The notes beneath the pieces are model-generated. The model was not told the DNA's origin, ran no database searches, and saw only the letters and a list, made by a program, of their open reading frames with translations. A stretch of DNA of 64,000 bases from Candidatus Proruminimicrobium quisquiliarum (lineage in GTDB: Bacteria > Elusimicrobiota > Endomicrobiia > Endomicrobiales > Endomicrobiaceae): the NCBI GenBank assembly GCA_018433245.1, contig JAHDRN010000007.1:62001-126000 (forward strand), written 5' to 3'. Shown here piece after piece: positions 5,046 to 54,305 of the stretch (its first letter is position 1; each line of letters begins with the position of its first letter). Position numbers and translations under genes: made by a program.

Positions 5046-5059
5046 CCCGGTTTGGGAAG
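5046..5059 (-). pseudogene. tRNA-Gly remnant, outermost 3' piece
   Basis: Matches only the anticodon loop and the 3' side of the anticodon stem (minus CTTCCCAAACCGGG). The T-arm and acceptor are lost. It borders the left inverted repeat of the outermost nested element and pairs conceptually with the 5' piece at 5941-5965. Confidence 0.55.
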
Positions 5060-5113
5060 TCAGGGTTCGTTAACTGATATAAAACACTTTACGCTGTAGG
5101 TATTTTTTGTAAA

Positions 5114-5155
5114 AGCGGGCGATGGGAATCGAACCCACATCTCCGGTTTGGGAAG
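5114..5155 (-). pseudogene. tRNA-Gly 3' part, middle level
   Basis: Holds the acceptor 3' strand, T-arm, variable region and anticodon loop of tRNA-Gly, ending at the anticodon loop where the left repeat of the middle element begins. It differs from the complete tRNA in the anticodon stem (AAACCGG instead of AAGCTGG). Its missing 5' part is at 5857-5881. Confidence 0.75.
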
Positions 5156-5211
5156 TTTAGGGTTCGTTAATAGCTATAAAACACTTTACGCTGTAGGTAT
5201 TTTTTTGAAAG

Positions 5212-5253
5212 AGCGGGCGATGGGAATCGAACCCACATCTCCAGCTTGGGAAG
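5212..5253 (-). pseudogene. tRNA-Gly 3' part, inner level
   Basis: Matches the complete tRNA from the discriminator through the T-arm to the anticodon loop, then breaks into the left repeat of the inner element. It lies 97-98 bases from the equivalent position of its neighbours on either side. Its 5' part is at 5606-5630. Confidence 0.8.
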
Positions 5254-5255
5254 TA

Positions 5256-5603
5256 AGGGTTCGTTAACAGATATAAAATATTTTACGCTGCAGGTATTTT
5301 TTTGAAAGAGCGGGCGATGGGAATCGAACCCACATCTCCAGCTTGGGAAGCTAGGGTTTTACCACTAGACTACGCCCGCATTTATAATTTTTAATATTTT
5401 ATGAAGACAAATATTACATATATTTGGCAAATAAAATATTGAAAATTATCAAAAAATAACACAGCCCCTTCGGGGTTGTTTAGAAACATCAATCTGCTTC
5501 GTTTGTTTTTCTAACAATAGCAAAAGCTATTGCCTCAAAAAACAGCCTTGCATATTATCCTTTCTAAACAACGTAAATTGTTTTATATCTGTTAAAGAAC
5601 CCT
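5256..5603. mobile_element. Inner inverted-repeat element carrying the complete tRNA-Gly
   Basis: A 348-base segment with 35-base inverted ends: 5256-5290 and 5569-5603 agree at 31 of 35 positions by my count. It splits a tRNA-Gly copy (3' part 5212-5253, 5' part 5606-5630) and itself carries a whole tRNA-Gly at 5309-5379, plus a right arm of about 190 bases with strong hairpins at 5461-5479 and about 5515-5533. It has no coding capacity, so it would need a recombinase or transposase from elsewhere. The ends share the core TAACAGATATAAA with the element at 53781-54050. Confidence 0.75.
5309..5379 (-). tRNA. tRNA-Gly, anticodon CCC
   Basis: Folds as a cloverleaf of 71 bases: acceptor GCGGGCG paired with CGCCCGC, discriminator U, a D-arm with GTCT/AAAC (one C-A mismatch) and loop AGTGGTA, anticodon stem CTAGC/GCTGG with one U-G pair, loop TTCCCAA giving anticodon CCC, and T-loop GTTCGATTC. 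It closely resembles the bacterial glycine tRNA that reads GGG. CCA is not encoded, and the CCA-adding enzyme gene is the next gene. The U-G pair in the anticodon stem sits where all the truncated copies break, so this copy may carry a repair scar. Confidence 0.92.
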
Positions 5604-5605
5604 CA

Positions 5606-5630
5606 GGTTTTACCACTAGACTACGCCCGC
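5606..5630 (-). pseudogene. tRNA-Gly 5' part, inner level
   Basis: Identical to the first 25 bases of the complete tRNA (acceptor 5' strand and D-arm), then broken at the start of the anticodon stem by the right repeat of the inner element. The sequence upstream of it (minus strand) is also a copy of the sequence upstream of the complete tRNA. Confidence 0.8.
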
Positions 5631-5856
5631 ATTTATAATTTTTAATATTTTATGAAGACAAATATTACATATATTTGGCAAAGAAAATATTGTAAATTAT
5701 CAAAAAATAACACAGCCCCTTCGGGGTTGTTTAGAAACATCAATCTGCTTCGTTTGTTTTTCTCACAATAGCAAAAGCTATTGTTTCAAAAAACGGCCTT
5801 GCATATTATCCTTTCTAAACAACGTAAATTGTTTTATATCTGTTAAAGAACCCTCG

Positions 5857-5881
5857 GGTTTTACCGCCAGACTACGCCCGC
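5857..5881 (-). pseudogene. tRNA-Gly 5' part, middle level
   Basis: Acceptor 5' strand and D-arm of tRNA-Gly, with GGCGG in the D-loop where the complete copy has AGTGG. It lies 251 bases from the inner 5' part, exactly the same distance as the inner 5' part lies from the complete tRNA. Confidence 0.78.
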
Positions 5882-5940
5882 ATTTATAATTTTCAATATT
5901 TTATGCAGCAAAATGTTTTATATTTATTAAAGAACCCACG

Positions 5941-5965
5941 GGTTTTGCCGCCAGACTGCACCCGC
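5941..5965 (-). pseudogene. tRNA-Gly 5' part, outermost level
   Basis: The most diverged 5' part (GCGGGTG acceptor, GGCGGCA D-loop). Its position beyond the right repeat of the outermost element and its greater divergence fit it being the oldest target copy. It ends 12 bases from the stop of the CCA-adding enzyme gene. Confidence 0.68.
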
Positions 5966-5976
5966 TTTAAAAGAGT

Positions 5977-7425
5977 TTAAATTCTATATCTTTTTTGTAA
6001 CGCTGTCAATTTTGATTTTGCAAACAGAAGCGCTTCTTTTTCAGTAGTAATTAAGCCTTTATTCTGCTTTTCTTTTATTATTTTTAAAAGTTCGCCTATA
6101 ATTTTACTTGGCTTTAAAGAAAGCTTTTTCATTAAAACATTTCCGTCTATGATTTTAGGTTCTGATATTTTTTTTGAAGTTTCAAAATAATCGTCAATAA
6201 ATTTAGAAACTTTATTCTGCTGCATCTCAAGTATTTTTTTTGAATATACTTTTAAATTTTTATATGAATGCCAGTCGGCAAGAGCCATTATAAGCAAATC
6301 CGGAATATTTTCTGCTATATCTCTGAACAGTCTGAGTTTTGCTCTTTCGGTGGCCGTTCCGGTTTTTAAAAGATTTGACGGTCTCATGTGGCTGCTTACT
6401 ATATTTTTTGCGTATTGTATTTCTTTTTTGCCCATTTTCATTCTTTGCATTATAACTTCTATTTTATCTGCGCCTATATTTTCGTGGTCTAAAAATCTCA
6501 GTTTCCCGTCAACCTTTTTCGCGCAGTCAGGTTTTGCGCAGTCGTGAAAAAGCGCTATAAATTTCAAGAGATTTTTTTTATTTACGTTTTCCGAATAATT
6601 GACGTCAAGATGTTTTAAAAGATCTGCGTTTGACACCTTAAAATATTTCCCGGTGTCGTTTAATATTTTTTCAATAGAATCAAGCGTAAGCATCGTATGC
6701 TGAAATAAGCCTTTGGGATGATAATAAAATTTTCTGGCAGATTTTTTCATTTCTTTTATTATCGGAAAAATATTTTCCAAAAGTCCGTATTCATCCATCA
6801 GTTCAATATATTTTACGGAATTATTTGAAGACAGAACTCTAAAAAATTCATTCTTTATCATCTCGGGAACTGCTTTTTTGATCAATCCGGCATTTTTCTT
6901 TACAAGAGACAATGTCTTTTTGGATATTGTAAAATTCAATTCAGAGGCAATTCTGAAACATCTAAGTATTCTAATCGGATCTTGTTTAAAAACAGCTTCT
7001 GAAACGGCATTGACTGTTTTTATTTTTAGATCGTTATATCCCTTGCACGGGTCAATAATGTTCTTTGTTATATTGCCAAAATCATTTATTGAAACGGCAA
7101 GAGCGTTTAGAGTAAAATCTCTTTTTTTGAGATCCTCTTCAATGTTTTTGCCATGCATCTGAGAAACATCTATATATTTTAAATTTGAACAATTTAAAAG
7201 TGCAACTCTGTAATTTTTATTTTTTTTATCAAGTATTATGAATTTGCCGTCGAGTGCTTTTGCAAGTTTTTTTGCAAAATTTTCAGCGGATTTTGAAACG
7301 CATATATCCATATCAAAAGATTTTTTATTTAACAAAAAATCTCTCATATAACCGCCGACTATAAAAACACCGGTATTCTCATTTTCCGAAATCAGCTGCA
7401 TTTTTTTTATTATTTTTTCCATCAT
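5977..7425 (-). CDS. cca: CCA-adding tRNA nucleotidyltransferase with HD domain
   Basis: Adds or repairs the 3' CCA of tRNAs. The 482-residue protein has the class II polymerase head (GGYMRDFLL at about 24-32, then DMDIC with catalytic aspartates), the flanking RNA-binding region (KRDFTLNAL, DPIRILR) and an HD phosphohydrolase domain with FHDCAKPDCAKK. The tRNA-Gly gene next to it encodes no CCA. The first ATG (7425) overlaps the stop of the upstream ABC gene; a second ATG at 7422 is better spaced from GGAG, so either may be used. A related poly(A) polymerase function cannot be excluded from sequence alone. Confidence 0.9.
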   Translation of the reverse strand: MMEKIIKKMQLISENENTGVFIVGGYMRDFLLNKKSFDMDICVSKSAENFAKKLAKALDGKFIILDKKNKNYRVALLNCSNLKYIDVSQMHGKNIEEDLKKRDFTLNALAVSINDFGNITKNIIDPCKGYNDLKIKTVNAVSEAVFKQDPIRILRCFRIASELNFTISKKTLSLVKKNAGLIKKAVPEMIKNEFFRVLSSNNSVKYIELMDEYGLLENIFPIIKEMKKSARKFYYHPKGLFQHTMLTLDSIEKILNDTGKYFKVSNADLLKHLDVNYSENVNKKNLLKFIALFHDCAKPDCAKKVDGKLRFLDHENIGADKIEVIMQRMKMGKKEIQYAKNIVSSHMRPSNLLKTGTATERAKLRLFRDIAENIPDLLIMALADWHSYKNLKVYSKKILEMQQNKVSKFIDDYFETSKKISEPKIIDGNVLMKKLSLKPSKIIGELLKIIKEKQNKGLITTEKEALLFAKSKLTALQKRYRI

Positions 7426-53688: not shown

Positions 53689-53780
53689 GATATTTTTTTT
53701 AAAAAAGATTTCTTTAAAATAAAAAAATACAGGTGGTTGACCTGTTGCAAGTTACTTTTTATCACGAGTCTAAAAAGTTC

Positions 53781-54050
53781 AGGACAGGCTAACAGATATA
53801 AAGCAATTGTGTTAGCTGTCAAAACAGATGATGTGCAAAGCAGAGTGACGAAGTAATAGCGAGTCTATTACGAGGAAGTCTAACGAAGCAGAGCGCTGTT
53901 TGGGCGCTAACCCTTCGGGCTGCGTTACTTTTTGATAAATTTGTATATTTTGTTTGTAAAGTAGTGAAAACTACTCTCCTGCACAAAATATACAAATTGA
54001 TTTTCAAAAATTTTAGCAGCACAAATGTTTTATATCTATTAGACTGTCCT
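53781..54050. mobile_element. 270-base inverted-repeat element, relative of the tRNA-Gly element
   Basis: The left end (53781-53811) and inverted right end (54020-54050) are 31 bases long and agree at 27 positions by my count, starting AGGACAG and sharing TAA(C/T)AGATATAAA(A/G)CA. That core is also in the ends of the nested elements at 5062-5938. Inside are a hairpin of TAATAG...CTATTA, one of AGCGC...GCGCT, and a perfect 16-base-pair palindromic stem at about 53939-53999 (AATTTGTATATTTTGT and complement) holding a smaller AGTAGT-GAAA-ACTACT stem. There is no open frame. It looks like a non-autonomous transposable element. Confidence 0.7.
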
Positions 54051-54102
54051 CAAAAAAGACCCGCCACTGGGTCGCACATTCGTTTGTGTTTTTTACTGCA
54101 CA

Positions 54103-54163
54103 ACTCACAACTTGAAAAATCCTTACTGCATAATGAAACGGATTTTTCTTCAAACAAGTGAGT
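54103..54163. repeat. Hairpin-forming sequence upstream of pgeF
   Basis: ACTCA..CTTG..AAAAATCC pairs with GGATTTTT..CAAG..TGAGT around a central loop. It lies within the 617-base stretch between ftsZ and pgeF, which otherwise holds the element at 53781-54050 and no believable gene. Confidence 0.5.
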
Positions 54164-54305
54164 TTAAAAACTTATCTGTTTTAAGTTTTTACAGTAAAAA
54201 ACACCGCACTCATAGACGTGCTAAACGTGGCAAAACGACAATGCTTTTAGGCGAAACTACTAGATGCAAAACGACGAAACAACAACAGAAAGGAAAGGCT
54301 TAACA

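Follow-up and report, generated by a model that had tools for sequence, protein, structure and literature searches.

One tRNA gene was detected in the window (the whole 64-kb stretch of DNA analyzed here), a tRNA-Gly(CCC) at 5308-5379 on the minus strand, identified with ARAGORN and Rfam. It scores as a full tRNA and is the sole intact CCC gene found. The bacterium is a termite-gut inhabitant; its genome is coded G000 and that of its sister G001, and other G numbers denote relatives. On the plus strand the intact gene is preceded by three 3' fragments of the same tRNA (5046-5060, 5114-5157 and 5212-5254) and followed by three 5' fragments (5606-5630, 5857-5881 and 5941-5965), all six recognized by sequence comparison and lying in the minus orientation. 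Outside the tRNA, 68 12-mers matching tRNA-Gly were counted in the array region and 0 in the remaining 64-kb window, and chance matches were excluded for the fragments on this basis. A preliminary description had reported the same arrangement, with three 3' parts on the left and three 5' parts on the right of a whole gene, and this arrangement is confirmed. The outermost 5' fragment, the start of the original gene, adjoins a minus-strand gene at 5977-7425 of the CCA-adding enzyme / poly(A) polymerase family (ORF; Pfam PolyA_pol, 1.3e-19). This gene lies upstream of the array, encodes a CCA-adding-enzyme type nucleotidyltransferase and is kept as a neighbor in relatives. A scan of genome contigs with the CCA-adding enzyme gave no match.

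Between the fragments lie parts of an element, for which U denotes the element body and V the element tail. In the orientation of the tRNA (minus strand throughout), the array reads outer 5' half, U1, middle 5' half, U2, inner 5' half, U3, tRNA, V3, inner 3' half, V2, middle 3' half, V1, outer 3' half. The complete innermost element spans 5255-5605 and consists of V3 with its left inverted end (5255-5307), the intact tRNA as cargo and U3 (5380-5605), in which a structured module, a hairpin and the right inverted end were delimited from the inverted repeat and by alignment. Around it lie V2 with its left inverted end (5158-5211) and U2 (5631-5856; 96.9% identical to U3, both being equally distant from G001), and outermost V1 with its left inverted end (5061-5113; inverted repeat I1/I2) and U1 (5882-5940). 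All six fragments abut an inverted end, the left ends starting at 5061, 5158 and 5255 and the right ends stopping at 5605, 5856 and 5940, with arms of 28-36 nt that are 82-89% complementary. The bases at the junctions do not reproduce the tRNA site cleanly. From inner to outer, identity to the intact tRNA falls from 25/25 through 23/25 to 20/25 for the 5' fragments and from 43/43 through 40/42 to 11/14 for the 3' fragments, so that divergence grows outward as originally described. The outermost level is decayed on both sides, its 3' fragment being reduced to 15 nt and its right arm carrying a large internal deletion.

A search of the same genome found the tRNA-bearing form at this locus alone, and it was seen nowhere but inside tRNA-Gly. 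Cargo-free relatives with matching ends and no tRNA were located on the plus strand of the window at 53779-54052 and on contig C31. The larger repeat that surrounds cargo-free copies (in the window about 53732-54235) has at least 15 paralogous copies without the insert in this and related genomes. The family, named B, is widespread in Endomicrobiaceae (Elusimicrobiota), with many copies for example in genomes recorded as Candidatus Endomicrobium neocapritermitis. Its copies are 185-313 bp long, none of which could hold a transposase gene, and nearly all have terminal inverted repeats of 22-39 bp; the tRNA-carrying element of the array measures ~350 bp with ~35-bp inverted ends. Copies in G026, G029, G030, G021 and G019 have inverted ends of 33-38 bp, mostly with TA on both sides; in other Endomicrobiaceae, where copies measure 185-301 bp, the boundaries read TA-GGGTGTGT...ACACACCC-TA in most copies. 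TA flanks are not clean at the tRNA array or in the surrounding repeat of G000. At the site of one B copy of G029, G025 is empty, and the lengths fit a 2-bp duplication.

Assignment of the array ends to a mobile-type element is supported by the cargo-free relatives with the same ends elsewhere, the many paralogous sites without them and the one empty orthologous site. B is best regarded as a MITE-like family, being short, protein-free and dispersed, with inverted ends and sites without copies. The preliminary description had proposed that the same ends be sought in related genomes, together with empty sites, and both were found: the former as cargo-free B copies across Endomicrobiaceae, the latter in G025 and in the uninterrupted paralogous repeats.

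Several further repeats were recorded beside B. The dispersed repeat at 53732-54235 of the window (also L107-L126) consists of a GTTACTTTTT..AAAAAGTAAC hairpin followed by about 180 bp with apparently covarying stems; it has many copies in G000, G001, G011 and G020, and some of these hold B at one fixed position. In G030 (L134:150-830), a tRNA-Ala is followed by direct repeats ending in its 3' part, one of which is interrupted by B and adjoins a paralogous empty unit. In the same genome (L131:279-650, minus-strand reading), a B copy whose 33-bp inverted ends match perfectly is placed exactly between tRNA-Glu and tRNA-Lys.

To describe the structure of B, 16 full-length copies were aligned, the tRNA being removed from the two that carry it. 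The inverted ends pair into a long terminal stem in the consensus fold, which further comprises a second long stem, a small CCC..GGG hairpin and a third stem. In this fold 94.9% of cells are paired, compared with 82% in shuffles and < 48% when the pairing is slid, and the observed pairing was reached in 0/500 shuffles. Changes on both sides were seen in 48/83 pairs; the pairing is, as judged from the alignment, conserved by compensatory changes. It follows that the ends of B diverge between subfamilies yet stay paired. The same 35-base end had been thought to recur at each break, and this held in so far as every fragment abuts an inverted end, but a fixed 35-base sequence was ruled out. In both G000 and G019 the tRNA occupies one and the same position, within the 3' arm of the third stem. 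One B copy in G026 (L138:226-497) has the inner hairpin inverted relative to the others, with the outer stems unchanged.

Strong compensatory changes throughout the element, and ends that would lengthen the anticodon arm, also suit a spliced structured non-coding RNA locus, intron-like or a permuted tRNA, in place of the remains of a mobile element. This reading is very improbable, as copies of this structure that lack a tRNA and are flanked by TA are scattered over unrelated sites, the outer tRNA halves are decayed, and no Rfam family corresponds to it. Rfam searches with B at gathering and relaxed thresholds gave nothing except chance-level matches, and models of group I and II introns had no match in two regions even at the relaxed threshold. 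Neither an intron nor a permuted tRNA found support.

A transposase or recombinase gene bounded by the same ends, which the preliminary description had suggested looking for, was not found at the loci examined. No transposase lay between B ends at the examined loci with unpaired ends (a non-exhaustive search), and among the ORFs beside unpaired B ends in G026, G029 and G030, read by eye, none was recognized as a transposase. The IS630-type DDE_3 transposase (PF13358) was absent from 8/8 genomes. Y1_Tnp (RAYT-like) genes occurred only in G026, G029 and G030 among nine genomes tested (L279-L284), and were rejected as movers of B, being bounded by TGTCA-type inverted ends and not by B ends. These are also the three genomes with the best-preserved B ends; no direct link was found. 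The 350-bp element has no open frame for a site-specific integrase, and phages, plasmids and viral contigs gave no match.

The locus was then compared among relatives. A plain tRNA-Gly stands beside the CCA-adding-enzyme gene in G010, G011, G020, G025, G026 and others. G019, of another genus, has exactly one level, in which an intact tRNA, preceded by a B body and followed by a B tail, lies between a 5' half and a 3' half; its split site is about 15 bases from that in G000. G029 retains two tails and two 3' halves with no 5' halves left, G032 of a third genus reads tRNA, tail, 3' half, tail, and G001 reads body, 5' half, body with a run of N at the tRNA. That run of N raises the question of an assembly artefact, which we regard as the least probable explanation of all: the G000 copies are diverged and contiguous, G001 independently has a second element body and 5' fragment beyond its gap, and the same architecture recurs in G019 and G032. 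Insertion sites in the tRNA lie near 27-30 in G000 and near 43-44 in G019, G029 and G032; at least two sites argue for at least two events, which would be too many for random landing.

The inner tRNA of G019 is identical to the tRNA of G032 (71/71) and differs from those of its congeners at 6-8 positions, while the outer 5' half of G019 is nearest to G010 and G026. An inner tRNA of another lineage than the split one fits a carried, foreign replacement, and the earlier proposal that the element brings a replacement tRNA was thereby seen again in a second genome. Taken together, the comparisons of the split gene, of B with and without the tRNA, of its conserved pairing, of the B-free sites and of the one-level version in another genus give good support to an element that lies within the gene it targets and carries a replacement tRNA. 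The cell would keep a working tRNA though the original gene is destroyed, and a replacement role is predicted for the inner copy.

G019 and G032, although of different genera, also share the same break and a near-identical tail (23/23 nt), exact copies of which occur only at this locus among 77 genomes. Such sharing, and an inner tRNA in G019 that is foreign to its genus, would be expected of homing by homologous recombination, in which incoming or sister DNA with the split gene, its two halves acting as homology arms, converts an intact allele, from strain to strain as well as in the inner tRNA of an existing array. The middle fragments of G000 are hybrid-like in the manner that homing would produce, their junction-proximal parts resembling the outer copy and their distal parts the working tRNA. 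Identical tRNA-Gly genes are, however, also found between other genera (e.g., G025 and G002), which weakens the G019-G032 identity as a sign of transfer and removes it as proof; the homology arms are just 25-43 nt; and homing predicts one history for the left and right arms, which disagree. It is thus a tentative possibility, and could explain spread once a split allele existed, not the origin of that allele.

How three levels arose in G000 was judged from changes within the arms. A14G and T16C are common to the middle and outer 5' fragments, and G38A and T40C to the middle and outer 3' fragments; all four are absent from the functional tRNA and from near relatives. A14 is invariant in functional tRNAs, and the changes are of pseudogene type. 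The right arm groups levels 2 and 3 and the left arm levels 1 and 2, and V2 has in common with V1 a derived base where the 16 aligned B copies show no variation. The preliminary description had proposed three concentric, successive insertions; the shared changes and the discordant arms do not support it. If three or more elements had inserted in turn, each at the same anticodon-arm site of the tRNA brought by its predecessor, the concentric order, the outward divergence and the equal counts would be accounted for, and two levels with very different inverted ends do occur in G032 and G029. The functional tRNA moreover has CTAG at the break, the tetranucleotide preferred by IS630-type elements. 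Successive insertions predict that each half-pair records the working tRNA of its time, but the changes common to the middle and outer fragments, including that at A14, are absent from the functional tRNA. TA is missing from the break position of near relatives (CCAGC), and the genome has no tRNA-carrying copy elsewhere. The innermost halves are 68/68 identical to the tRNA, whereas at the junctions 4/6 bases do not match what a TA duplication of the present tRNA would give (p about 1e-5); some of these bases may be element ends, and since the exact end bases of the G000 subfamily are uncertain, the mismatch was given less weight and does not serve as proof of copying. We consider repeated insertion unlikely.

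Discordant arms and shared fragment changes favor a single insertion followed by amplification by recombination. On this evidence, a B-family palindrome with a tRNA-Gly(CCC) was probably inserted once in the host tRNA-Gly(CCC) and then amplified. On either side the tRNA and its halves form direct repeats, at distances of 251 and 97 bp, because of which the units could be multiplied by recombination, and the simplest reading would be a single insertion after which the tRNA and its halves underwent unequal exchange or gene conversion with one another. The one-sided loss in G029 and G032 may be the reverse of the same process. Against a single insertion with later amplification, equal counts of 3 + 3 are expected from nesting and are a coincidence under independent tandem duplication; the fragments are short (25 and 43 nt), so that shared changes could also come from gene conversion after true nesting; the inner fragments are identical to the tRNA, which requires crossovers near the junctions; and the ends of the G000 subfamily are not clean TA.

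The proposed course of events is as follows. A protein-free B palindrome holding a complete tRNA-Gly(CCC) would enter the host tRNA-Gly(CCC) downstream of the CCA-adding-enzyme gene, cutting the host gene in two and leaving the tRNA of the element as the surviving working copy. Recombination would then multiply the units (5' half + body) and (tail + 3' half) to three per side, and the same recombination would shorten one side in other genomes. The working tRNA would be cut from a transcript running through the array from the upstream side. A bolder version, for which we would claim little confidence, is a minimal protein-free 'self-replacing' structured palindrome that never comes without a functional copy of the gene it disrupts, the halves of that gene serving as homology arms for further transmission from strain to strain and for nesting within the cargo itself. 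If true, such a homing-like unit would rely on host recombination alone and restore its target each time.

The nearest known principle is the tRNA-dependent lysogeny of phages, in which mycobacteriophages disrupt a tRNA gene and carry a complete replacement (Guerrero-Bustamante and Hatfull, 2024; PMC10865867). As there, integration destroys a host tRNA gene, which is not rebuilt, and the element brings a complete tRNA of the same kind; the phage system has a phage genome, a tyrosine integrase and an att core (PMC10865867), whereas the element here has about 350 bp and no protein genes, and differs further in its inverted ends, in a tRNA placed within its own structure and in fragments repeated on both sides. 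No element with this habit had been thought to be described; the principle is in fact published for phages (PMC10865867), but the statement stands for a protein-free palindromic element carrying a replacement tRNA, of which no description was found in open-access literature. An Endomicrobia comparative genomics study (PMC11257099) mentions transposons and IS prediction, and a keyword search of its text showed neither a MITE nor such an element. Widespread, too, are tRNA fragments that stem from integrating elements (PMC9897764). Phages, islands and ICEs that integrate in tRNA genes likewise use the gene as a site and have a complete tRNA with fragments of it, but they rebuild the tRNA end and leave a direct repeat of one half with a large element between (PMC9897764), unlike the array, which keeps both halves on opposite sides of the element, where they meet its inverted ends.

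Comparison with mobile DNA of other kinds gave partial likenesses. In contrast to the array element, DNA transposons targeting small RNA genes are larger, encode a transposase, depend on targets present in many copies and bring no replacement. The likeness to the array element lies in an insertion specificity for genes of small RNAs, as described for a DNA transposon superfamily targeting multicopy small RNA genes (PMC3706591). The disruption of tRNA-Thr in Caldiarchaeum is similar in its intact and fragmentary tRNA copies around a mobile element and in the recombination invoked; unlike the array, it is archaeal, involves a 1.8-kb recombinase-coding element and has spliced introns (PMC3293823). 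With the TA-duplicating Tc1/mariner-IS630 MITEs, B shares a short, protein-free and dispersed form, inverted ends, TA flanks in recent copies and several TTAA/CTAG-like flanks; it departs from them in the lack of DDE_3 in the eight genomes, in its long conserved internal structure and in the subset that carries a tRNA.

The strategy by which phages break a tRNA gene and bring a spare is thus open to an element that is a few hundred bases long and has no protein gene. One locus in related bacteria gives a natural series of a plain gene, one, two and three levels and collapsed forms, which allows tests of how tRNA genes become duplicated, are replaced and come to be surrounded by fragments, and the array suggests where puzzling tRNA fragments of genomes could come from.

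Two further observations concern tRNA-Gly(CCC) itself. Its CCA end is unencoded in most relatives, whereas G019, G032 and G006 (L250:393-466, L142 and L253) encode it despite the CCA-adding-enzyme neighbor. In other families of the order (L055:1574-1960 and L059:1573-1745), 127-bp units come after tRNA-Gly(CCC); every unit has the final 17 nt of the tRNA (GATTCCCATCGCCCGCT) at its end, and a GAAGCCGACC...GAGAAG hairpin lies between. These units may be another small element tied to tRNA-Gly.
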